Positions 7,941 through 48,892 of a stretch of 49,058 bases of DNA are shown here, piece by piece. The notes under the pieces were generated by a model that had not been told where the DNA came from, did no database searches, and saw only the letters and a program-made list of their open reading frames with translations. Source of the DNA: Candidatus Izemoplasma sp. (lineage in GTDB: Bacteria > Bacillota_I > Bacilli_A > Izemoplasmatales > Hujiaoplasmataceae). A program made the position numbers and the translations under genes. Each line of letters begins with the position of its first letter. Position 1 is the first letter of the stretch. The stretch is from contig JAIPGD010000005.1 of assembly GCA_021736305.1 (NCBI GenBank), positions 1 to 49,058 of the forward strand, written 5' to 3'.

Positions 7941-7958
7941 CTATGGATGGTGAGGAAA

Positions 7959-9740
7959 ATGCTGTTTGGCAAACATGTTAATAATTTTTATCTTAAGTAT
8001 GGTGTGTTTTTCTTATTGGGAATTGGTGCATTATTTTTAGTTGATATCTATCAATTGAAAATACCCGAATACATAGGGAATATAATTGATGCATTAAATC
8101 CGAATGAGGAAAGCATTTTTATAATAAATGATTTGGCTGACATAATGCCTATTATTATTGAATTGCTATTTATTGCTTTAGTAATTGTTTTGGGTAGAAT
8201 TTTTTGGAGAATATTTATATTTGGAACATCTAGAAGAATAGATTATGATTTACGTAACAAAATGTTTTCTCACGCAGAAAAACTAAGCCAAAGTTATTAT
8301 GGTAAGAAAAAAACTGGAGGTTTAATGGCGTTATTCACTAACGATTTGAACGCTGTTAGAATGGTGTTTGGTCCTGGAATGTTGATGATGTTTGATGTTT
8401 TGATTTTAGGTACATTGGCTTTTAGAAAGATGTATCTTTTAGATCCATTCATTACATATATGGCTGCGATTCCTCTGGCTTTAATCGCTATTTTAGCGAC
8501 ATATATTTCAAAAATTACTCGAATTAAATTTAAAGAAAGACAAAAAGCCTTTGAAGATTTGAGTGATTTTACTCAAGAAAATTTTTATGGAATTGGTGTT
8601 ATAAAAGCTTTTGTAAATGAAGTAAGAGAAATACGAGAGTTTGCAAAAGTTAATAAAAATAATCGTGAAAAGAATGAAGCATTTATTCGTACTAGAACAA
8701 TATTACATGTTAGTGTTGAATTGTTTATCAATATAGTTAGAGTTATTATGTTAGGTTTAGGGGCATTATTAGTTATGAATACTATCTCAGCTGCTGGATC
8801 TTTTTCTGTTGGGAATTTAACAACATATATAGGCTATTTTGGCGCTTTAATATGGCCAATGATGGCAATAGGTAGACTAATAAATATGCGTGCACAAGGA
8901 AAAGCATCCTTAGATAGAATTTCTGAGTTTTTAGATGAAGAAGTTGAAATTCATGATGACCGAGAAGTATTAGATGTTGATGAAATCAAAGGTAAAATAA
9001 CTTTTAATAATTTGACCTTTGCATATCCAGGAACTGAAGAAAAAGTTTTAAAGAATATTAGTTTAGATATTGAAAAAGGACAAACTGTTGGAATAATTGG
9101 AAGGACAGGCTCTGGTAAAACAACTATGGTTGATTTATTGCTAAGATTATATAACCTTAGAACTAACGAACTTCTTCTAGATGACTACGACATTATGAAG
9201 TTACCGATAAAAACAATTAGAGATTCTATAGGATATGTCCCTCAGGATAATTTTATATTTACGGATGTAATTAAAAATAATATTTCGTTTTCTGAAGATG
9301 AAGTAGATCAAGAATTAGTTAAACAAATGGCTATATATTCTGATGTGCATGATAACATTGTGGATTTCCCAAGACAGTACGATACAATGGTTGGCGAAAG
9401 AGGTGTAACTCTATCTGGCGGTCAAAAACAAAGGATATCAATTGCTCGAGCTTTACTGAAAAAACCAAATATCCTTATTATGGATGATTCTTTTTCTGCA
9501 GTAGACACTAAAACAGAAGAATCGGTTATTGGTAATTTAAGAAAACTTAGAAAAGGCCAAACAACAATAATAATTGCACATAGAATTTCAACAATTAAGC
9601 AAGCTGATCAAATAGTCTTTCTTGAAGATGGCAAAATTTTCGCAAAAGGCACTCATAAAGAGTTGCTAGAATCTTGTGAATTATATAAAGAATTAGTTCT
9701 TCGTCAACAACTTGAATCTGAGTTAGAGGGGGAAGAATAA
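7959..9740 (+). CDS. ABC exporter half-transporter, subunit with degenerate ATP site (BmrC/YheI-like)
   Basis: Type IV ABC exporter subunit: a six-helix membrane domain followed by an ATPase domain with Walker A GRTGSGKTT (about 381-389), signature LSGGQKQR and Walker B ILIMDDS. The catalytic Glu after Walker B is Asp, as in the degenerate-site partner of heterodimers such as BmrC or TM287. It pairs with the next gene, whose ATG overlaps this stop by one base. The start is ATG 7959 because GGTGA (7949-7953) is correctly placed; an in-frame ATG at 7947 lacks an SD. The substrate is unknown; drug or lipid export is typical of the family. Confidence 0.88.
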   Translation: MLFGKHVNNFYLKYGVFFLLGIGALFLVDIYQLKIPEYIGNIIDALNPNEESIFIINDLADIMPIIIELLFIALVIVLGRIFWRIFIFGTSRRIDYDLRNKMFSHAEKLSQSYYGKKKTGGLMALFTNDLNAVRMVFGPGMLMMFDVLILGTLAFRKMYLLDPFITYMAAIPLALIAILATYISKITRIKFKERQKAFEDLSDFTQENFYGIGVIKAFVNEVREIREFAKVNKNNREKNEAFIRTRTILHVSVELFINIVRVIMLGLGALLVMNTISAAGSFSVGNLTTYIGYFGALIWPMMAIGRLINMRAQGKASLDRISEFLDEEVEIHDDREVLDVDEIKGKITFNNLTFAYPGTEEKVLKNISLDIEKGQTVGIIGRTGSGKTTMVDLLLRLYNLRTNELLLDDYDIMKLPIKTIRDSIGYVPQDNFIFTDVIKNNISFSEDEVDQELVKQMAIYSDVHDNIVDFPRQYDTMVGERGVTLSGGQKQRISIARALLKKPNILIMDDSFSAVDTKTEESVIGNLRKLRKGQTTIIIAHRISTIKQADQIVFLEDGKIFAKGTHKELLESCELYKELVLRQQLESELEGEE

Positions 9741-11887
9741 TGCCTAGAATAAAATATGATATTGATGATTATGTTAATCGTGAAATGAATGATACAGAAA
9801 TTATCAAACGTTTATTAACTTATGTAAAGCCATTTTTAAAGCCAGTGATTATATCATTTATCTTAGTTCTTTTAATTGTTGGATTGGATTTGTTAGGTCC
9901 TTTATTTATTTCAGATGTATTAGATTCATTGGGTAAAGAAACTATACCCAAAGTTAGAATTTTAATAGTTGTTATAACTTACTTAGTTTCACTTGGGTTA
10001 TTAGCATTAACAACCTATAAACAAAGAATCATTCTGCAAATGACTGGACAAAAAATAATATATAATATTCGTCGTGATGTATTTAATCATATCGAGACTC
10101 TATCAATCGCACAATTCAATAAAGTGCCGATTGGAAAACTTGTTACTCGTGTTAGTTCTGATATTGATAAACTTAATATGTTATATACAGATGTAGTAAT
10201 TAATGTTTTAAAAGATATTTTAATGGTTATCGGAGTGTTTGTTGTTATGGCAATCTTATCGCCGCGATTAACGCTTTGGTTATCGGGGTTAGTACCACTT
10301 ATTTTCATTGCTTCATATATTTTTAGAAGATTTTCTAGAAAAGCTTTTCGAAAAGTTAGAAGAAATGTATCAATTATTAATGCATTTTTATCTGAGCATT
10401 TATCAGGAATGAAATTAATTCAAATATTCAATCGCGAAGAGAAAAAATTTCAAGAATTTAAAGATAAAAATAATCATCTAAAAGGATCCTATTATCAACA
10501 GATTTTAACCTTTAGTCTTTATAGACCCTTTATGTATATGTTGTACATTCTTGGTTTGATTATCGTTTTATGGCAGGGATCAGGATTAGTAGTACAAGGT
10601 TATATAACTTATGGCGTATTATTTGCATTTACACAATATGTTAGGAGATTTTTCCAACCTATTCAAAATCTAGCTGCACAGTTTAACACATTGCAATCAG
10701 CATTTACCTCAGGTGAACGAATATTTGATATCTTAGATACTGAACCTGATGTTCAAGACAAAGATTCAGCTAAAGAATTAACTAATGTTAAAGGTAAAAT
10801 TGAGTTTAGAAATGTATGGTTTGCTTATAATGAAGCAAAATGGAATAATTTACTAACAATTTCTTCTTTAGTAGAACATAAATCAAAAAAAGTTCCTTTA
10901 AATAAAGTAAATATTAAAAAAGCATTTATTGATGACCACAATACTTTATATTTTATTCTTAGTGACAAGAAACAGATAAAAGCAAGTGATTTGGTTAAAG
11001 GTAGAAACGAAGATATAACTTTTGAAATTGTAGATGATTATCTTGTATGGCGTAATAAATTAGAGCTTAAAAAGCATAAACTTGTGTCTTTAGATATTTT
11101 AAAACAAGCAATTGATCATCAAGGTCGAGAACTTAAGTTTGATATTAGTGATAATATGATTCGTTATCAATTTGTAGATGAAATGGAATGGGTATTAAAA
11201 GATGTTTCATTTGTTGTGGAAGCTAATCAAACGTTAGCATTAGTAGGTGCAACAGGTTCAGGTAAAACAACAATTATTTCATTAATTGTCAGAAATTATG
11301 ATATTCAAAAAGGCCAAATTTTAGTTGATGATATTGATATTAGAGAAATTACAATGAGTAGTTTGCGAAAGCATATTGGCCAAATGTTACAAGATGTATT
11401 TTTGTTTTCAGGAACTATTGAATCAAATATTCGATTAAGAAACGAAAATATCACCGACAAAGAAGTTTTATCAGCTTCAAAATATGTTAATGCGGATTAT
11501 TTTATTCAAAAGCTACCAAATAAATATGATGAATTAGTAAGAGAAAGAGGAAATAATTTTTCTTCTGGGCAAAGACAATTATTATCTTTTGCTAGAACAA
11601 TAGTACATAACCCTAAAATTATGATTCTCGATGAAGCAACCGCGAATATAGATACTGAGACTGAAATGTTAATACAAGAATCACTTAAGAAAATTATGAC
11701 AATAGGAACAATGATTATTGTTGCTCATCGTCTCTCCACTATTCAACACGCTGATAACATATTAGTTATGCAAAAAGGAGAAATAATCGAAAGTGGTAAT
11801 CATCAAGAGTTGTTAAAACAAAAAGGCCATTATTATCAACTGTATCGGTTACAGTATGATAAAAGCATTGAAGATGCAGACATTTAA
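9740..11887 (+). CDS. ABC exporter half-transporter, catalytic partner with an insertion in the ATPase domain (BmrD/YheH-like)
   Basis: Second half of the heterodimer: an N-terminal six-helix domain and an ATPase domain with Walker A GATGSGKTT (503-511), Walker B ILDEATAN with the catalytic Glu intact, and a diverged signature FSSGQRQL. This is the usual reciprocal pattern to the upstream subunit. At 715 aa it is about 110 residues longer than ordinary half-transporters. The extra segment lies at about 368-478, between the A-loop region (VWFAYNE) and WVLKDVSF, inside the ATPase domain. It is followed by a terminator, so the operon is two genes. Confidence 0.88.
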   Translation: MPRIKYDIDDYVNREMNDTEIIKRLLTYVKPFLKPVIISFILVLLIVGLDLLGPLFISDVLDSLGKETIPKVRILIVVITYLVSLGLLALTTYKQRIILQMTGQKIIYNIRRDVFNHIETLSIAQFNKVPIGKLVTRVSSDIDKLNMLYTDVVINVLKDILMVIGVFVVMAILSPRLTLWLSGLVPLIFIASYIFRRFSRKAFRKVRRNVSIINAFLSEHLSGMKLIQIFNREEKKFQEFKDKNNHLKGSYYQQILTFSLYRPFMYMLYILGLIIVLWQGSGLVVQGYITYGVLFAFTQYVRRFFQPIQNLAAQFNTLQSAFTSGERIFDILDTEPDVQDKDSAKELTNVKGKIEFRNVWFAYNEAKWNNLLTISSLVEHKSKKVPLNKVNIKKAFIDDHNTLYFILSDKKQIKASDLVKGRNEDITFEIVDDYLVWRNKLELKKHKLVSLDILKQAIDHQGRELKFDISDNMIRYQFVDEMEWVLKDVSFVVEANQTLALVGATGSGKTTIISLIVRNYDIQKGQILVDDIDIREITMSSLRKHIGQMLQDVFLFSGTIESNIRLRNENITDKEVLSASKYVNADYFIQKLPNKYDELVRERGNNFSSGQRQLLSFARTIVHNPKIMILDEATANIDTETEMLIQESLKKIMTIGTMIIVAHRLSTIQHADNILVMQKGEIIESGNHQELLKQKGHYYQLYRLQYDKSIEDADI

Positions 11888-11901
11888 ATAAAATATATTG
11901 G

Positions 11902-11943
11902 AGGTTAAATAACTTAGCTAGCGCTTAAGTATTTAACCTTTTT
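11902..11943 (+). terminator. terminator of the first ABC exporter operon
   Basis: Imperfect stem AGGTTAAATA / TATTTAACCT (outer arms 11902-11911 and 11930-11939), extended inward with one bulge, then a short T-run. Confidence 0.75.
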
Positions 11944-11970
11944 ATTAAATAAACAATTTATATTCCCTTA

Positions 11971-12000
11971 ATAATTTAGTTGACAATGCAACTAATTTAT
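11971..12000 (+). promoter_or_regulatory. MarR-type operator overlapping the -35
   Basis: Two 12-base arms, ATAATTTAGTTG and CAACTAATTTAT, are inverted repeats matching at 11 of 12 positions with a 6-base centre. The dyad encloses the TTGACA -35. A second perfect dyad ACTTAT-T-ATAAGT (12006-12018) overlaps the -10. Both fit autoregulation by the MarR protein encoded just downstream. Confidence 0.7.
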
Positions 12001-12008
12001 TTTATACT
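11980..12008 (+). promoter_or_regulatory. promoter of the marR-ABC exporter operon
   Basis: A perfect -35 TTGACA (11980-11985), 17-base spacer, TATACT (12003-12008). It is one of the strongest consensus promoters in the window and is covered by inverted repeats. Confidence 0.85.
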
Positions 12009-12046
12009 TATTATAAGTGAAAATACCGGAAATGAGTTGATATTTT

Positions 12047-12478
12047 TTGAATAATAAAAATGAAAGAATGATTAATAAGTATCATTATAAATTTTTAGAA
12101 GATAAATTTAAAGATTTAGAATTAGGGAGAGCAGAAGCTCCTTATTTAAAGATGATTGATGCTCATAGTCCAATTAAAATGAATTCTTTAATAACAAAAG
12201 TTGTTTTTCATAAATCTCATACTACACGAGCAATTAATCAAATGGAAAAAGATGGGTTAATTAAGAAACAAAAAGATCTAAATGATCTACGTAGTTATAT
12301 ATTATCAATTACCGAAAAGGGAAAAAAAATTGCTAAACAAGTTAATCAAATTTTACAAGAGTGGGATGATTTGGTTAACAGCGCTTTAAGTAATGAGGAA
12401 ATTAAACAACTAGATAATATTCGTGAAAAAGTGTATTTAAAGCTTAAAGATTACTTCGAGGAGGACTTTGCGGAATGA
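12047..12478 (+). CDS. MarR family transcriptional regulator
   Basis: Winged-helix repressor of 143 aa. The helix-turn-helix region reads KMNSLITKVVFHKSHTTRAINQMEKDGLIKKQKDLNDLRSY in two parts (recognition helix about 62-73, wing about 78-90); the DLRS wing is typical of MarR proteins. The start is TTG 12047 after GAGTTGAT (12034-12041); an in-frame ATG at 12068 is the alternative. It overlaps the following ABC gene by 4 bases (ATGA). The operon layout MarR plus two ABC half-transporters implies ligand-responsive control of the exporter from the dyad sites at 11971-12018. Confidence 0.88.
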   Translation: MNNKNERMINKYHYKFLEDKFKDLELGRAEAPYLKMIDAHSPIKMNSLITKVVFHKSHTTRAINQMEKDGLIKKQKDLNDLRSYILSITEKGKKIAKQVNQILQEWDDLVNSALSNEEIKQLDNIREKVYLKLKDYFEEDFAE

Positions 12479-14310
12479 AAAGAATGTTTAGCTATTTAAA
12501 ACCTTATAAGTTAAAAGTGTTTTATATTTTCATATTGGTTAGTTTAACTGCCCTTGGAACACTTTTATTACCTAATTATATGAGTAAAATTATCGGGGAA
12601 GGTTTAGATGCCAGGTATGAAGAATTAAACACTAATGATGAATGGGTAGAAGTTGAGAGATGTGATTTAGAAGCTAATCCTGACACTTGTAAGATTATTC
12701 AAACATCTGATTTTGATATTATTATGAAGTATGGTGGAATTATGTTAGGGGTAACTTTAGCATCTACAGTTGCCTTTATTGGACTTATGTATTATTCAAG
12801 TGAAATTTCTAGTAAGGTTGGAAAAGATATAAGAAGTGATTATTATAAAAAAATTAATTCTCTTTCTTTATATGAAACAGGACAATTCGGAACCTCAACG
12901 TTAATTACAAGAGCTACGAATGATGTTATGCAGGTCCAAAATTTTATTATTATGGCATTAAGAATGGTTTTAAGAATTCCGATTTTATTTATTGGTGCTT
13001 TAGTGTTGTCTTTACAACAATCAATAGCTTTAACATTAATTATTTTAGCCGGTGTTCCTTTGCTTCTAATTCTTATTGGCGTAATGTTTAAGTTAGTTGT
13101 GCCTTTATTTAGAAAATTACAAAAAAGAATAGATAAATTAACTTTAGTAACTAGAGAAAGTATTAATGGTGTTAGAGTAATTAGAGCTTTTGGTCAAGGA
13201 GATAGAGAAGTTAAAAGATTTAATGATAATAATGATCGCTTAGCTGAAGTATCATATAAAGCAGGTAAGATTATGTCATTTTTAAATCCTTCAATTAATT
13301 TGATTTTTAATATTGTTATTATTGGAGTAGTATTTTTTGCTTTTCAAATGATTATCAGTGAATCGTTTACTGATTATCAATTTTTAGGAAATGTTTCAGC
13401 TGTTATTCAATATGCAATGCAGATATTATTTAGCATTTTGATGTTAACAATGACTTTTATTTTGTATCCTCGTGCTGATGTTTCGGGTAAAAGGATTAAA
13501 GAAATACTTGATTTAGAATCATCAGTTGTTGATACAGGTAGTAATGAGTTTGATGATTATAATTTTAGAGGACAAGTCGAATATAAAGATGTTTCTTTTA
13601 AATTTCCTGATGCTGAAAAGAATGTTCTTGATAAAATAAGTTTTAAAGCAAAACCCGGAGAAACAATAGCTATTGTCGGTTCAACAGGCTCTGGTAAATC
13701 AACAATAGTAAATCTTATGCCAAGATTTTTTGATATAAGCGAAGGTTCTTTAAAAATCGATAATGTGGATATTAAAGATATTAAATTAAATAAATTAAGA
13801 TCATTAATTGGTTTTGTGCCACAAAAAGCATCTTTATTTAGTGGAACTATAAAATCGAATATTGCTTATGGAAGAGATTATGCATCTGATGAAGAAATAA
13901 AAAAAGCTGCACAAATAGCACAAGCAGAAGAATTTATTGATGAAATGGAAGCTGGTTATGATTCAACAGTAGATCAAGGTGCGACTAATTTTTCCGGAGG
14001 ACAGAAACAACGAATTTCAGTTGCTCGAGCAATTATTAGAAAACCTAAAATATTTGTTTTTGATGACAGTTTTTCAGCACTTGATTTTAAAACTGATTTT
14101 AAATTAAGAAAAGCTTTAAGAGAAGAAATTAAAGATGCAACCGTCTTTATTGTCGCGCAAAGAATTGGAACTATAAGAGATGCTGATCAAATTATTGTAT
14201 TGCAAGAAGGTAAAATGGTAGGTCTTGGAAAACATGAGGATTTAATAGAGTCATGTGAAGTATATCGTGAAATTGCCTTATCTCAATTAGATGAGGAGGA
14301 ATTGTCATGA
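12475..14310 (+). CDS. ABC exporter half-transporter with degenerate ATP site and extended outer loop (TM287-like)
   Basis: Six membrane helices, then an ATPase domain: Walker A GSTGSGKST (about 402-410), signature FSGGQKQR, Walker B FVFDDS. Two catalytic residues are replaced: Asp for the Walker B Glu and Gln for the switch His (VAQRIGT, about 561), the degenerate-site pattern of TM287-type subunits. The loop between the first two helices is enlarged (about 43-80), acidic, and contains two cysteines (63 and 72) predicted to face outward. Overlapping ATGA junctions with marR and the next gene indicate tight coupling. The substrate is unknown. Confidence 0.9.
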   Translation: MKRMFSYLKPYKLKVFYIFILVSLTALGTLLLPNYMSKIIGEGLDARYEELNTNDEWVEVERCDLEANPDTCKIIQTSDFDIIMKYGGIMLGVTLASTVAFIGLMYYSSEISSKVGKDIRSDYYKKINSLSLYETGQFGTSTLITRATNDVMQVQNFIIMALRMVLRIPILFIGALVLSLQQSIALTLIILAGVPLLLILIGVMFKLVVPLFRKLQKRIDKLTLVTRESINGVRVIRAFGQGDREVKRFNDNNDRLAEVSYKAGKIMSFLNPSINLIFNIVIIGVVFFAFQMIISESFTDYQFLGNVSAVIQYAMQILFSILMLTMTFILYPRADVSGKRIKEILDLESSVVDTGSNEFDDYNFRGQVEYKDVSFKFPDAEKNVLDKISFKAKPGETIAIVGSTGSGKSTIVNLMPRFFDISEGSLKIDNVDIKDIKLNKLRSLIGFVPQKASLFSGTIKSNIAYGRDYASDEEIKKAAQIAQAEEFIDEMEAGYDSTVDQGATNFSGGQKQRISVARAIIRKPKIFVFDDSFSALDFKTDFKLRKALREEIKDATVFIVAQRIGTIRDADQIIVLQEGKMVGLGKHEDLIESCEVYREIALSQLDEEELS

Positions 14311-16175
14311 CAGATAAAAACAGTAAAAAGAAAGAAAACACCAGACAAAGCGGTCCAAAACATGGACCTGGAGCAATGGCAATGAATCGCCCCGTTGTTA
14401 AGGCAAAAGACTTTAAAGGGACAACAAAAAGACTACTACAATATATAGGTAATTATAGGATACAATTATTGGTTATTTCTCTTTTTACTATTTTAGTTAC
14501 AGGAGTAATGGTTGTAGCACCTAATTTCTTAAGATTAATTATAAATGACCTACAAAGAATCATTAATGGTTCTATTTCTCAAGATCAAGGTATTTCGAAT
14601 ATAATTACAGCCTTTGTAGTTATTATTTCTTTATATGCCTTAAGATACGTTTTAGAAGTTATCTTACATTTATTAGGAAATAAAGTTAGTATTAGTATTG
14701 GTAAAAAAATGCGTAATGATTTACGAACTAAACTTGAGAAATTGCCAATCAAATACTTTGATGAAAAAAGCACTGGGGATGTTTTGTCAGTATTTTCAAA
14801 TGATGTTGATATAGTTACAAACTCTATACAACAAAGTTTAATTAATGTAATATCTTCAGTTTTCCAAGTATTAGGTATATTAGTTATGATGATAATAATA
14901 TCTTGGAAATTAACAATTATTGCTTTATTTGTCTTACCGTTGTATGTTTTTACAACAATGATTATTGCGAAAAAATCACAAGCAAAATTTAAAGCTCAAC
15001 AAAAAGAATTAGGTAATTTAAATGGGCATATTGAAGAAATATTTACAGCGAGTAAAATTGTAAAATTATTTAATAAAGAAGAAGAAGCCTATAAAGAGTT
15101 TAGTACAATAAATTATAAATTAGCCGATAAAATGCGCGGAGCACAATTTTTAAGCGGATTAATCAGGCCTTTAATGACCTTTATTAGTAATCTTTCTTAC
15201 GTAGCAGTTGTTATTGTTGGTGGTATTTTAGCGGGAGCAACAAATCCATTATTGGTCGGAGATATTACTGTATTTGTTAACTATCAAAGAAACTTTGCTC
15301 AACCAATATTAAATATTGCGAACATTGCTAATCAACTTCAATCTACAATAGCTGGAGCTGAAAGAGTATTTATGGTTTTAGATGAAACTGAAGAATTAAA
15401 TAAGGCCACAGATGATGAGATATGTTTATCTGAAGTCGATGGACATGTGTTGTTTGAGAATATTGATTTTTCTTATTCTAAAGATACCGAATTAATTAAG
15501 AATTTGAATTTAGAAGTGAAACCGGGAAAACAAATAGCAATAGTTGGCCATACTGGTGCAGGGAAAACAACTTTAGTTAATTTATTAATGCGTTTTTATG
15601 AAATTGATAAAGGTGGTATTTATATTGATGGCATAAAAACAACTGATTGTACAAGAGTTTCTTTAAGAAAAAAATTCGGTATGGTATTGCAAGATACTTG
15701 GTTGTTCTCTGGTAGTATTAAAGAAAATGTTGCTTACGGGAAAGCTAATGCTACTGATCAAGAGATAATTAAAGCATGTAAACAAGCTCATGTTCATCAT
15801 TATATTGAAACCCTTCCTGAAGGCTATGATACAGTCTTGAAAGAAGATGCAGATAATATATCCCAAGGACAAAAGCAATTACTCACGATAGCAAGAGCAA
15901 TTCTTTTTGATCCCAAAATATTAATCCTTGATGAAGCAACTTCTTCAGTTGATACGCGAACTGAAAGTTATATTCAGAACGCAATGTTAAAAATGATGGA
16001 AGGGAAGACTTCCTTTGTTATCGCTCATAGATTATCAACCATTAAAAATGCTAATACGATTTTGGTTATGGATCATGGACAAATAGTTGAACAAGGGAAT
16101 CATCAAGAATTGTTAGAAAAAAATGGTGTTTATGCTGATTTGTATAATTCACAATTTTTAAACAAACCAATTTAA
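14307..16175 (+). CDS. ABC exporter half-transporter, catalytic partner (TM288-like)
   Basis: Catalytic partner of the preceding subunit. A basic, Gly-rich N-terminal tail of about 35 residues precedes the first helix; the membrane domain is followed by an ATPase with Walker A GHTGAGKTT, signature ISQGQKQLL, Walker B ILDEATSS with Glu, and an intact H-loop IAHRLST. The weak signature plus intact Walker B is the expected reciprocal of the upstream subunit. Length 622 aa. rimO follows after 12 bases with its own SD, so read-through is possible because no terminator is seen between them. Confidence 0.9.
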   Translation: MTDKNSKKKENTRQSGPKHGPGAMAMNRPVVKAKDFKGTTKRLLQYIGNYRIQLLVISLFTILVTGVMVVAPNFLRLIINDLQRIINGSISQDQGISNIITAFVVIISLYALRYVLEVILHLLGNKVSISIGKKMRNDLRTKLEKLPIKYFDEKSTGDVLSVFSNDVDIVTNSIQQSLINVISSVFQVLGILVMMIIISWKLTIIALFVLPLYVFTTMIIAKKSQAKFKAQQKELGNLNGHIEEIFTASKIVKLFNKEEEAYKEFSTINYKLADKMRGAQFLSGLIRPLMTFISNLSYVAVVIVGGILAGATNPLLVGDITVFVNYQRNFAQPILNIANIANQLQSTIAGAERVFMVLDETEELNKATDDEICLSEVDGHVLFENIDFSYSKDTELIKNLNLEVKPGKQIAIVGHTGAGKTTLVNLLMRFYEIDKGGIYIDGIKTTDCTRVSLRKKFGMVLQDTWLFSGSIKENVAYGKANATDQEIIKACKQAHVHHYIETLPEGYDTVLKEDADNISQGQKQLLTIARAILFDPKILILDEATSSVDTRTESYIQNAMLKMMEGKTSFVIAHRLSTIKNANTILVMDHGQIVEQGNHQELLEKNGVYADLYNSQFLNKPI

Positions 16176-43975: not shown

Positions 43976-44025
43976 AAAAAAGAAAATCGCCTAATAAATA
44001 GTAATATTTATATGAGGTGAAAACA

Positions 44026-45774
44026 ATGAGATTGTTTAAGGGGAATTTTGGGATTGTTTTGATTATTATTGGAATAATTGGATTTATCTATTTTAATAAT
44101 TTTCAAACTATAGATGATTCAAAGGAATATAATCAAAACGAAGAATTTGTAGACATAAAAGATAATTTTCTAATTAAAGTTGAAATTAAAGGCGAAATAA
44201 ACATACCTGGAATTTATTCAGTGGATGCTAATCTTCGAGTAGTAGATTTAATATCTCTAGCTGGTGGATTAACAATTAACGCTGATACAAGAACAATTAA
44301 TCGAGCGCAAAAGTTAACAGATGAAATGGTAATAATTATTCCTCGAAAAGAAAACAGTAATAGTTTAGTTGATGAAGTTGTATTTAAATATATTGATGTT
44401 GAAATTCGAGGTGAGGTTAAATTTCCTGGTGTATATCAATTAAACGAAAATGCAATTGTCAACGATATTGTTTTAAAGGCAGGTGGTTTAACCAAAGAGG
44501 CAAATCTCTTTGACATCAATTTAGCAAAGAAATTACAAAATGGTGAACAAATAAATATATCATGTATAAGCAAAGATAATGAAACTGATATTTTTGTAGA
44601 GATAAAAGGGGAAATTAATCAACCAGGAGTTTATGTTTTAGATGAAGGAGCAATTGTACTTGATTTAATAGAAAAAGCCGGTGGAATAACTGAGAACGCC
44701 GATACATCTAATTTTTCGCAAGTCGAACTATTGTTAAATCATCAAGTCATTATAGTGCCATCAATTCAACTAACTGAAGAGAAAACAATAGTTGTTGATG
44801 TTAAAGGCGAAGTCAATAATCCTGACGTGTACTATTTTTCTGAATCACTAAGAGTAATTGATGTGATAAATGCTGCTGGTGGATTTACAAAAGATGCGAA
44901 TTATCATGATTTAAATCTATCTGAAATAGTTAATGATGAAGAATTGGTTATTATTGAAAAAATTCCTGATTCAAATAATTTAATCGTGGTAGATTTAAAG
45001 GGGGAGGTTAGATATCCTGGTGTATATTTTTTAGAAAAAGGTAATCGAGTTGAAGATTTGATTAAATTAGGAGGAGGCTTTAAAACAAACGCTAATATAG
45101 ATGATATTAATCTTGCTGAGCAGTTAGTCGACGAACAAGTTGTAATTGTTACAAAAGGCGATTATGAAAATATATATATCTATGTCCAAATTTCAGGTGA
45201 AGTAATGAAACCCGGGATTTATGCATTGATGACTGGTTCTAGAATGAACACCTTAATCAATAGAGCGGGAGGATTCACAAAATATGCAGACACTGAAAAT
45301 ATAAATTTAACAAAATTATTGTCTGATGAAGATACTTTTAATATTCCAAGACTAGAAGATGAAGCAAATAAAATATATATTTCAATAATTGGAGAAGTTA
45401 AAAATCCTGGAACTTATTATGTTGATGATGAAATAAATATATTAGAGGCAATTAATATTGCTGGGGGGTTAACTTTAAAAGCTAATCTTGAAATGATTGA
45501 TTATAATTTATCAATTGATTTAGGAACTGTTATAGTAATCCCTAGCTTAGAAAAAGATATTAAATTACCTGGAGAAACTGTTGGATTAATAAATATTAAT
45601 ACAGCAAATTCGGAAGTTTTACAAACATTAAATGGAATAGGGATCATATTAGCTGAAAGAATTATTGAATATAGAATAACTCACAATGGATTTAATTCTA
45701 TTGATGAAATAATGAATGTATCTGGAATAAAAGATAGTATTTATGATCAGATTAAGAACGATATTACAGTCTAA
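44026..45774 (+). CDS. comEA: ComEA-like DNA-binding protein with seven tandem SLBB domains
   Basis: 582 aa. One N-terminal membrane helix (about 8-24) and no further helices imply an outward-facing anchored protein. Seven SLBB repeats follow at roughly 50-107, 121-180, 189-246, 254-311, 319-376, 384-442 and 449-506, each with the pattern K-G-E-x-x-x-P-G-x-Y followed by A-G-G-(L/F)-T and a closing V-I-I-x-P. The C-terminus (520-582, NINTANSEVLQTLNGIG) is the helix-hairpin-helix DNA-binding domain of ComEA. Ordinary ComEA has one SLBB and about 200 aa. The start is ATG 44026 after GAGGTGA (44014-44020). Location before comEC supports a DNA-uptake receptor role. Confidence 0.88.
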   Translation: MRLFKGNFGIVLIIIGIIGFIYFNNFQTIDDSKEYNQNEEFVDIKDNFLIKVEIKGEINIPGIYSVDANLRVVDLISLAGGLTINADTRTINRAQKLTDEMVIIIPRKENSNSLVDEVVFKYIDVEIRGEVKFPGVYQLNENAIVNDIVLKAGGLTKEANLFDINLAKKLQNGEQINISCISKDNETDIFVEIKGEINQPGVYVLDEGAIVLDLIEKAGGITENADTSNFSQVELLLNHQVIIVPSIQLTEEKTIVVDVKGEVNNPDVYYFSESLRVIDVINAAGGFTKDANYHDLNLSEIVNDEELVIIEKIPDSNNLIVVDLKGEVRYPGVYFLEKGNRVEDLIKLGGGFKTNANIDDINLAEQLVDEQVVIVTKGDYENIYIYVQISGEVMKPGIYALMTGSRMNTLINRAGGFTKYADTENINLTKLLSDEDTFNIPRLEDEANKIYISIIGEVKNPGTYYVDDEINILEAINIAGGLTLKANLEMIDYNLSIDLGTVIVIPSLEKDIKLPGETVGLININTANSEVLQTLNGIGIILAERIIEYRITHNGFNSIDEIMNVSGIKDSIYDQIKNDITV

Positions 45775-47887
45775 TAGTTCTAAGTATATTCATTTAGCAT
45801 TATTGATTACATTATCGATTTTTGCTTTAAAGATTGCTTGGTTAATAGTTTTAGTAGCTGTATATTTAATATATCTATATAAAAAAGCTAAAACCTTATT
45901 CATTATCTCATTACTATTTTTATCAATAATTTTTTTTCGTTTACATATGTTGAATCTGATTGTTAAAGAAAATTTACCAATGATAGGTGAGGTAAACGAA
46001 GTATTTGATAAACATATCATTATTAAAAACAAGAACAAATATATAGTTTATTTTGAAAACACAAAAAATCTTAAGCCTGGGATGATTATTAATATTGAGG
46101 GTACATATATTGAAAACGATGCATATAATATAATTCATACTTTTAATTATAATCTATATTTAAAGAGTGAAGGAATAAAAGGGGTAATAAAAGCAGATAA
46201 AATAACATACATACATAATGAATTTAATCTTAAAATATTTAGGTTTCAAATAGAAAAATATCTTGAAAAAGAATATTCATCAATTTCTGGTTATTTAAAA
46301 ATGTTCCTTATAGGTAATAAAGAAGATTTGAGTCCTGAAATTTATGAAAAAAGTAATAAAATTGGTATTTCACATTTGTTTGCAATTTCTGGGATGCATT
46401 TGGCTTTAATAGTTGGTTTTATTAATATTATATTGAATTTTTTCTACCTAAAAAAATCAACTTATAACATAATAATCTATATTTTTCTTTTTTGCTACAC
46501 TTTAATAACGGGGTTTTCTATTTCAATTATAAGAGCTTCATTGCTGATTGCTTCTTTAATGTTTGCTAAACAAAATAATTATATTGTATCAACATCAGAT
46601 TTATTAAGCTTTTCATTTATATTTCTCTTGATAATTAATCCTTATTATATATTTAATATTGGATTTCAATTCTCGTATATAATTGCTTTTACCTTAGTGT
46701 TAAACAGAATGATGATTAAAAATAAGGAGCGCATAAAGCAAATTTTTATAGTAGGTTTATTTGCAAATCTTATTAGTTTACCAATTATCCTAGAAATGAA
46801 TAAAGAAATTGGTTTGCTAAATATATTTCTAAATGTATTTTTTGTTATTATTGTAGCTTATCTACTTTTGCCAGGTGCATTTATTGTTTTACTAATTCCC
46901 GGATTTTCATCTATTTACTTAAAATTGACTATTTTTTTAGAGCAAACTATTGAGTACTTAGATAGATTAAATTATTATCTATCATTTAATTTCACTAATA
47001 CCTTTATTAAATTAAGTTATTGGGTTTTACTTTTTTGGTTAATTGTTTATATAAATAAAAGAAAAAAATATCAATATCTAATTTTATTATTTATTTTTAT
47101 GTTGTTTTTTGGAAACATTAGTTACATTCCAAATTTAAGTTTTGTTAGAATATTAGATGTTAATCAAGGCGATGCAATTCATATCCATAGTGGAAGTTGT
47201 AATATGCTAATTGATACTGGGAACGATGACAATTATGATAATTTAATAAATTATTTAAATGGTTCGAATATTAGAAAATTAGATAGTTTAGTTATAACGC
47301 ATAATCATATTGATCATTATGGGGAAACAAATGATTTAATTGAAGAAATGGATATATCAAAGATATATGTAAATAAAAAGTTAAACGCCATTAATGCTAA
47401 TAATCAAATTGTTATTAGTAAAGATGAGTATATTAAGTGTGGAAAATCAAATTTTATTGTTTTAAATAGTAATAATAATTTATTAAACGAAAATAATAAC
47501 TCCATTGTTCTATACGGAAAAGTTGGTTCAGATAAATGGTTATTTACTGGAGATATTGGGGAAGAAATAGAGAAAGAGATTATTGCGAATTATAATTTAG
47601 AAATTGATCAACTAAAAGTAGCTCATCATGGTTCAAAATCATCTAGTTCAAATGATTTTCTTGATATTTTTAAACCAGAAGAAGGTTATATATCTGTAGG
47701 TAAAAATAGTTATGGATTACCTGACAATGAAGTGATTAATCTTTTTCGGGATAAAAATATTAATTTAAGTACTACTTTAGATCATGGCTCAATCACAATA
47801 TATTATTTTAAAGGGTGTCGTTTAAAAGAATATTATTATAATAATAAAAGCAAATATATATTTATTTTAAACCATAAAATCAACTGA
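45743..47887 (+). CDS. comEC: ComEC/Rec2-type DNA uptake channel
   Basis: 714-aa membrane protein transporting single-stranded DNA inward. N-terminal helices and a small soluble domain (about 75-160) precede the competence domain with ISHLFAISGMHLALI (about 205-219) and many helices. The C-terminal metallo-beta-lactamase domain has ITHNHIDHYGE and AHHGSKSSSSNDF and may degrade the second strand. It overlaps comEA by 32 bases; the SD before ATG 45743 is weak, so the exact start is uncertain. comEB is missing. It is possibly active in natural transformation or in scavenging DNA. Confidence 0.93.
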   Translation: MIRLRTILQSNSSKYIHLALLITLSIFALKIAWLIVLVAVYLIYLYKKAKTLFIISLLFLSIIFFRLHMLNLIVKENLPMIGEVNEVFDKHIIIKNKNKYIVYFENTKNLKPGMIINIEGTYIENDAYNIIHTFNYNLYLKSEGIKGVIKADKITYIHNEFNLKIFRFQIEKYLEKEYSSISGYLKMFLIGNKEDLSPEIYEKSNKIGISHLFAISGMHLALIVGFINIILNFFYLKKSTYNIIIYIFLFCYTLITGFSISIIRASLLIASLMFAKQNNYIVSTSDLLSFSFIFLLIINPYYIFNIGFQFSYIIAFTLVLNRMMIKNKERIKQIFIVGLFANLISLPIILEMNKEIGLLNIFLNVFFVIIVAYLLLPGAFIVLLIPGFSSIYLKLTIFLEQTIEYLDRLNYYLSFNFTNTFIKLSYWVLLFWLIVYINKRKKYQYLILLFIFMLFFGNISYIPNLSFVRILDVNQGDAIHIHSGSCNMLIDTGNDDNYDNLINYLNGSNIRKLDSLVITHNHIDHYGETNDLIEEMDISKIYVNKKLNAINANNQIVISKDEYIKCGKSNFIVLNSNNNLLNENNNSIVLYGKVGSDKWLFTGDIGEEIEKEIIANYNLEIDQLKVAHHGSKSSSSNDFLDIFKPEEGYISVGKNSYGLPDNEVINLFRDKNINLSTTLDHGSITIYYFKGCRLKEYYYNNKSKYIFILNHKIN

Positions 47888-47932: not shown

Positions 47933-48892
47933 ATGAATAATAATTGTTTTTTATTTTATGGCAACGATAGTTTTTTAATTAAAGAACAAACAAAAAAAAT
48001 ATTTATTCAAAATAATATTGCTGATGGTTCTGTCGAAGTTTATGATTCTGAAGAAGAAGGCATACATTTAGCATTATCAAATGCGTTAACTTTACCATTT
48101 TTAGTTGATAAAAAGGGTGTAGTTATAAAAGATGCTAGTTTTTTAACCAAACAAGGAAAAATCACTCCTGAAGAAATCGATGATTTAATTCGTTTTATTG
48201 ATATGGCTGTTAAAGAGACTATACTTGTTATTCAGTGTCCATATGACAAATTAGATAATCAAAGTAAAATTGTTAAGTTTTTAAAAAAACATATAATTAC
48301 TAAACAATATAATAATCAAGAAGGTTTAAATGTATATGATTTTGTAAAAAACAAACTATTAGAGAATAATTTAAAAATTGAACCTTTTGCTTTAACCCAA
48401 TTTGTTAATCGGATTCACCATGATTTGGATAGTATAAATAATGAAGTTGATAAATTGATTGCTTTTTCATATGATAAAGAAACAATTAATTCGGATATGA
48501 TTTCAGAAATCACTAGCAAGGATATTGATGAAAATATTTTTGATTTAGTAAATGCTTTATTAGACAACAATAAACCTAAATTAATGGAAATATATCACGA
48601 CTTGAAAAGGATTAATACAAATCCAATATGGATGTTAAGTTCAATAACAAATAAATTTTTAGAAATGTTGCATACAAAAGCGTTGTTAAAAATCGGGTAT
48701 AATCAAAAAGATTTAATAAAGTATTTTAATACATCAAGTGGAAGAGCATATTATATGAAAAAGAATGCTGAAGAGGTAAAAGAAGAATTACTGGAAAATT
48801 ATATAGATGCTCTACATGAACTGGATTATCAAATAAAAAGCGGAAAAATCGACAAGTCTTTAGGGCTTGAACTGTTTTTACTAAAAATATAA
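47933..48892 (+). CDS. holA: DNA polymerase III subunit delta
   Basis: 319-aa clamp-loader subunit that opens the sliding clamp. The N-terminal NCFLFYGNDSFLIKEQTKKI, the middle helix region DENIFDLVNALLDNN and the C-terminal ALHELDYQIKSGKIDKSLGLELFLLKI are typical of HolA. Its place after comEC is the standard Bacillota order. In Bacillus rpsT follows divergently; the sequence here ends before that can be seen. Confidence 0.93.
   Translation: MNNNCFLFYGNDSFLIKEQTKKIFIQNNIADGSVEVYDSEEEGIHLALSNALTLPFLVDKKGVVIKDASFLTKQGKITPEEIDDLIRFIDMAVKETILVIQCPYDKLDNQSKIVKFLKKHIITKQYNNQEGLNVYDFVKNKLLENNLKIEPFALTQFVNRIHHDLDSINNEVDKLIAFSYDKETINSDMISEITSKDIDENIFDLVNALLDNNKPKLMEIYHDLKRINTNPIWMLSSITNKFLEMLHTKALLKIGYNQKDLIKYFNTSSGRAYYMKKNAEEVKEELLENYIDALHELDYQIKSGKIDKSLGLELFLLKI

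Follow-up and report, generated by a model that had tools for sequence, protein, structure and literature searches.

Why a sediment bacterium without wall-synthesis genes should carry a DNA receptor with seven copies of a domain that ComEA normally has once is the question raised by one gene in the 49,058-nucleotide stretch of Candidatus Izemoplasma sp. DNA analysed here (contig JAIPGD010000005.1, hereafter the window). Work published in 2022 established the ComEA SLBB domain as an oligomerization domain (OD) whose copies associate head-to-tail; the B. subtilis OD crystal contains a ring of 14 with seven in the asymmetric unit, the interface includes a salt bridge between R83 and D111, and transformation is abolished by A106Y or by removal of the OD (PMC9747964). 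ComEA was further shown in 2026 to bridge and condense DNA, a longer linker between OD and helix-hairpin-helix (HhH) domain favouring bridging and a short one favouring non-bridging oligomers (PMC13168374). A published mutant with a long linker binds DNA but transforms poorly. In ordinary Gram-positive ComEA, the ODs of separate molecules join head-to-tail on DNA, which they bridge and condense toward the membrane, and the purpose proposed for the OD in both papers is to draw DNA across the thick wall (PMC9747964, PMC13168374).

The gene (Table 1) starts at an ATG (44026) with an RBS-like GAGGTG 6 nt upstream, and an alternative GTG at 44017 falls within that RBS-like site. The Pfam model SLBB (PF10531) matched seven separate stretches of the protein (264 bits summed, E=4e-80) and HHH_3 matched its C-terminus (61 bits, E=1e-16). 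In the whole-genome search all seven single SLBB matches exceeded the curated cut-off. Shuffling the protein 500 times gave no match at E<10. The only other HHH_3 match in the window genome was a 733-aa frame, taken to be Tex. The units start at residues 50, 123, 189, 255, 320, 385 and 450, that is, at spacings of 73, 66, 66, 65, 65 and 65 aa, and the gaps between units 2-7 are regular (6-9 residues). AlphaFold2 modelled all seven units as SLBB folds with high confidence (mean pLDDT 84.7), while the linker between the membrane helix and unit 1 and the linker before the HhH domain (aa 510-518) were of low confidence. The initial annotation had described seven SLBB units about 65 residues apart between a membrane anchor and a DNA-binding tip, and this layout was recovered in full, with seven units rather than fewer than five by both domain search and structure prediction. 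The anchored protein presumably faces outward.

Table 1. Coordinates of the comEA gene, its domains and its downstream neighbours in the window
Feature	Position	Strand	Evidence or remark
comEA, seven SLBB units, 582 aa	44026..45774	+	ORF; Pfam SLBB x7 and HHH_3; TIGR01259 over cut-off
N-terminal membrane helix of ComEA, aa 8-26	44047..44103	+	AlphaFold2 helix; hydrophobic sequence
SLBB unit 1	44173..44343	+	Interface R and D kept
SLBB unit 2	44392..44562	+	Interface residues lost (I, N)
SLBB unit 3	44590..44760	+	Interface residues lost (I, N)
SLBB unit 4	44788..44958	+	Interface R and D kept
SLBB unit 5	44983..45153	+	Interface R and D kept
SLBB unit 6	45178..45348	+	Interface R and D kept
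SLBB unit 7	45373..45543	+	Adjoins HhH; interface residues lost (N, L)
HhH (HHH_3), putative DNA-binding domain, aa 522-581	45589..45768	+	K166-equivalent is L542
comEC, channel and metallo-beta-lactamase domain	45743..47887	+	HNHIDH motif; start overlaps comEA end
holA (DNA polymerase III delta)	47933..48892	+	Conserved downstream neighbour

The identity of the protein was examined by profile, fold and gene order. The NCBIfam comEA model TIGR01259 scored 156.2 bits against a cut-off of 152.35, a score to which the repeated units may contribute part. A single window unit superposed on the B. subtilis ComEA domain 8dfk_A with a TM of 0.95 and an rmsd of 0.7 Å, Foldseek fitted the window units to the ComEA OD at TM 0.93-0.95, with looser matches to linear polyubiquitin and Wza, and the window HhH domain matched 8dfk by phmmer. 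The order YqeH-YqeK-RsfS-methyltransferase-ComEA-ComEC-HolA is kept in nearly all loci read across Izemoplasmatales, the methyltransferase being absent from some, and comEC adjoins comEA at every locus of the order where the contig extends far enough, indicating that these ComEAs are orthologues at one locus. Judged by its HhH domain, the adjoining comEC and this order-wide gene order, the window protein is a true ComEA orthologue, and no relative was found that carries the same array but lacks comEC and the HhH domain. Membership in the polysaccharide export (Wza/EpsE) proteins was considered and rejected, there being no Pfam Poly_export match and EpsE scoring 94 bits where the cut-off is 263. 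We regard it as improbable that the units form a ligand array for polysaccharide, on the surface or extracellular, or for some other polymer: the superfamily name, the polysaccharide-export relatives, the sub-threshold EpsE similarity and the appearance of Wza in Foldseek point that way, but in both sequence and fold the nearest solved structures are those of ComEA ODs, for which oligomerization has been demonstrated (PMC9747964), and the Poly_export match is missing.

Exactly seven units were found in all five species of the window genus, one of which is apparently Hujiaoplasma nucleasis zrk29. Elsewhere in the family, two units occur in genera g2 and g4, three in most other genera, and four in g6 and one g10 genome. 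In the two sister families of Izemoplasmatales, all 21 ComEAs have a single unit. The ComEAs of the seven-unit species are 45-60% identical to that of the window. Units within the window ComEA are 24-51% identical to one another, whereas orthologous units average 53-62% identity between species, indicating that the expansion is old rather than recent, as had been suggested from the divergence of the units. In a tree of units, the last unit of the window genus lies nearest the last units of other genera in the family, unit 7 and the last units of the family's other multi-unit ComEAs being orthologues, and units 3-6 lie nearest one another, suggesting that the middle part of the array probably expanded within the lineage of the window genus.

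Each unit of the seven-unit ComEAs is conserved position by position, and the array has not been homogenised. These two features, together with the fixed number of seven in species whose ComEAs have diverged so far, speak against largely neutral repeat growth, in which loss of the wall would have relaxed the constraints on ComEA and no new function would have arisen; the drift of unit number among genera (2, 3, 4, 7) and the degenerate interfaces of several units fit such growth, which we nevertheless consider quite unlikely.

Outside the family, a multi-SLBB ComEA was found neither in a survey of 198 genomes, all from one class, nor in the contig search with the genus alignment, which alone covered other phyla; the same contig search gave no match with the single window protein as query and did give matches with the alignment. 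Among the survey matches listed outside the family, none covering the SLBB half lay in a frame longer than 305 aa. The longer frames with HhH-only matches were of 715-770 aa, probably Tex, and of about 320-545 aa in mycoplasma-like genomes. Relatives from other bacteria checked at the locus level had one SLBB each. In two gut Bacilli drafts, a gene just upstream of an ordinary one-SLBB ComEA (L121:7971-9227 and L122:7929-9212, both + strand) encodes one SLBB unit and a domain that, by eye, resembles GH25 lysozyme; its product could be a muramidase docked on ComEA via SLBB-SLBB contact.

We mapped R83, A106 and D111 on every unit, the three identities fixing the numbering. In the single-unit ComEAs of the order, R was present in 18/21, A, S or T in 21/21 and D in 18/21 at these positions, respectively. 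Across the five species of the seven-unit genus, R is retained in 19/20 and D in 19/20 cases of units 1, 4, 5 and 6, while in units 2, 3 and 7 R is absent and D mostly absent. Counted per unit over the multi-unit proteins, 60 units have both R and D, none has R only, eight have D only and 42 have neither, which is the pairing expected if units are of two kinds, complete two-faced oligomerizers and others; such counts, drawn from related sequences, describe a pattern and are by themselves no proof of selection. Between neighbouring units of multi-unit ComEAs, no coupling of R in one unit with D in the next, or of D with R in the next, was found. Head-to-tail stacking of units within one chain gained no support from this, and AlphaFold2 gave no fixed arrangement, either for the full chain (pTM 0.39, overall shape not fixed) or for the fragment of units 4-6 (pTM 0.61, good models in only 2/5). 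Furthermore, the unit next to the HhH domain lacks R in 27/27 multi-unit ComEAs outside genus g2, as against R in 18 of the 21 single-unit proteins. Together with the published linker rule, this loss suggests a folded unit that acts as a spacer and keeps the sticky units off the DNA tip.

The main rival is a passive stalk, close to what the initial annotation proposed, in which the array sets distance only and raises the HhH tip some tens of nanometres off the membrane, through the glycans or lipoproteins that cover a cell without a wall. The regular gaps between units 2-7, the fixed number of seven and the three units that keep the fold without the interface residues are all compatible with it. 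A pure spacer, however, gives no reason for R and D to be kept in units 1, 4, 5 and 6, and the annotation's choice of a stalk or polymer binder leaves aside that the SLBB domain of ComEA is a demonstrated head-to-tail OD (PMC9747964). Moreover, MraY and FtsW were absent from all 61 Izemoplasmatales genomes searched, indicating that there is no wall for ComEA to span. The window genome itself is a 1.5-Mb draft, 95.75% complete, and the cultured strains H. nucleasis zrk29 and Xianfuyuplasma coldseepsis zrk13 are reported to be wall-less by electron microscopy (PMC10470597, PMC8397711). We judge the stalk rather unlikely.

The array had also been suspected to make up for a missing competence pilus, and PilB and PilC were therefore searched for over the 61 genomes of the order. 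Both are absent from the window genome and from zrk29, and PilC is absent from all six four-unit genomes, which would suit that idea. On the other hand, PilB and PilC are both present in three of the five seven-unit species (G001-G003), and G001 has a whole type IV pilus cluster (L141:2385-12705) with PilB, PilC, pilins, a prepilin peptidase and PilM/N-like proteins; it contains one PilB-type ATPase, and in the genome no second T2SSE match over the cut-off and no PilT were found. The cluster is patchy within the genus. Genomes with one, two or three units occur both with and without pilus genes, seven of the 21 single-unit genomes lack PilC and yet show no expansion, and unit number correlated with PilC at a Spearman coefficient of -0.26 (p=0.07, relatedness uncorrected). 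There being no consistent link, compensation for a pilus is highly improbable. Of the earlier interpretation as a whole, the assignment to ComEA and the old expansion hold, and the pilus compensation and the wall to be reached through do not.

The HhH tip is remodelled as well. K166 of G. stearothermophilus ComEA (K164 in B. subtilis) is needed for the DNA shift; the residue is K in 16/29 and T in 7/29 ComEAs of other bacteria, and being conserved yet not universal it was not treated as defining ComEA. At this position T occurs in 16/21 sister-family proteins and L, I or Y in 29/29 of the family, with L542 in the window. The family also has R at 169 in 26/29 proteins, as against 2/21 in the sister families, and its second hairpin has changed from GIG to GIK (K193) in 27/29, a change seen in 0/21 sister-family and 0/29 other bacterial ComEAs; K at 201 is found in 26/29. 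These changes map to the base of the family, as does the multiplication of the OD. Read from these substitutions, either the DNA-binding surface of the HhH domain was rewired, or its affinity dropped and was compensated by avidity, which is the chief uncertainty as to DNA binding. Given the exchange of K166 for L, DNA binding by the window HhH domain is not certain, though the protein gained R169 and K193, at its residues R545 and K569, and retains K201.

As to the fate of the DNA, Izemoplasmatales have been described as specialised DNA degraders (PMC8289736), and both zrk29 and zrk13 are reported to be capable of nucleic-acid degradation or use (PMC10470597, PMC8397711). In zrk29, comE/comF were induced up to 120-fold in situ, the text not specifying which comE gene (PMC10470597).

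In known transformation systems, DprA loads incoming DNA for recombination. DprA is absent from 60 of the 61 genomes of the order even though comEA-comEC persists, which suggests that recombination is not the main use of incoming DNA; the exception is the apparent zrk29 genome (G004:C1:991054-991641), so that recombination is possible in zrk29. Elsewhere in the window genome, a membrane-anchored protein of 373 aa with an endonuclease/exonuclease/phosphatase fold is encoded (L147:285-1406, on G000:C32), and each of the other four species of the genus has frames of 312-377 aa that belong to this Pfam family; the window-genome protein is a possible surface nuclease and alone no proof of DNA degradation. 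At 7947-16175 the window also contains two adjacent pairs of ABC-type exporter half-genes, four in all, between which lies a gene for a MarR-like regulator, as read from sequence.

The reading that we favour, at somewhat short of an even chance, is that the window ComEA is an oligomerizer whose units are joined covalently and which carries its own spacer, serving a bridging-prone and probably nutritional capture of DNA. The four two-faced units (1, 4, 5 and 6) of each chain would supply oligomerization, and the degenerate unit 7 would act as the folded spacer between these sticky units and the HhH tip. By the published linker rule, under which a longer spacing between OD and HhH favours bridging, receptors of this kind would be expected to form bridging networks of high avidity. 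They would gather extracellular DNA on the wall-less surface and hand it to ComEC, the captured DNA probably being mainly food and not a substrate of transformation. For the seven-unit protein, oligomerization, bridging and the nutritional role are alike inferred. A stronger version, tentative and rather doubtful, is that single chains replace the transient ComEA oligomer altogether, forming a pre-assembled DNA-condensing machine in which the dead spacer biases toward bridging in wall-less, DNA-feeding bacteria. Seven units are half of the 14-unit B. subtilis crystal ring, and if this version is true, adaptation to a thick wall is not the primary role of ComEA oligomerization.

The seven-unit ComEA marks one genus and is a new ComEA variant, its parts ordinary and their multiplication unusual. 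An order without MraY and FtsW has kept the OD, and one family of it has multiplied the OD up to seven times per receptor, which challenges the proposed role of pulling DNA through a thick wall. Close relatives offer a natural 1-2-3-4-7 series of units that includes cultured strains at both ends, zrk13 with one and zrk29 with seven, so that the purpose of ComEA oligomerization and nutritional DNA uptake are directly testable.

Compared with the ComEAs of B. subtilis and G. stearothermophilus (8dfk, 8dss; PMC9747964, PMC13168374), the window protein has in common the anchor, the SLBB OD, the linker, the C-terminal HhH domain and the adjoining comEC. It differs in having seven SLBB units instead of one and in having L at the K166 position with R169 and K193 gained, and its host differs in lacking wall-synthesis genes and comEB between comEA and comEC. 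With other Izemoplasmatales ComEAs, such as that of X. coldseepsis zrk13 (G041), it shares the locus, the gene order and a setting of wall-less, DNA-using relatives; the sister families have one SLBB unit, and other genera of the same family two to four. Polysaccharide export (Wza/OPX-type) proteins, like the window ComEA, carry several SLBB domains per chain, but they have no HhH domain, and the window protein, in a different gene context, has no Poly_export match.
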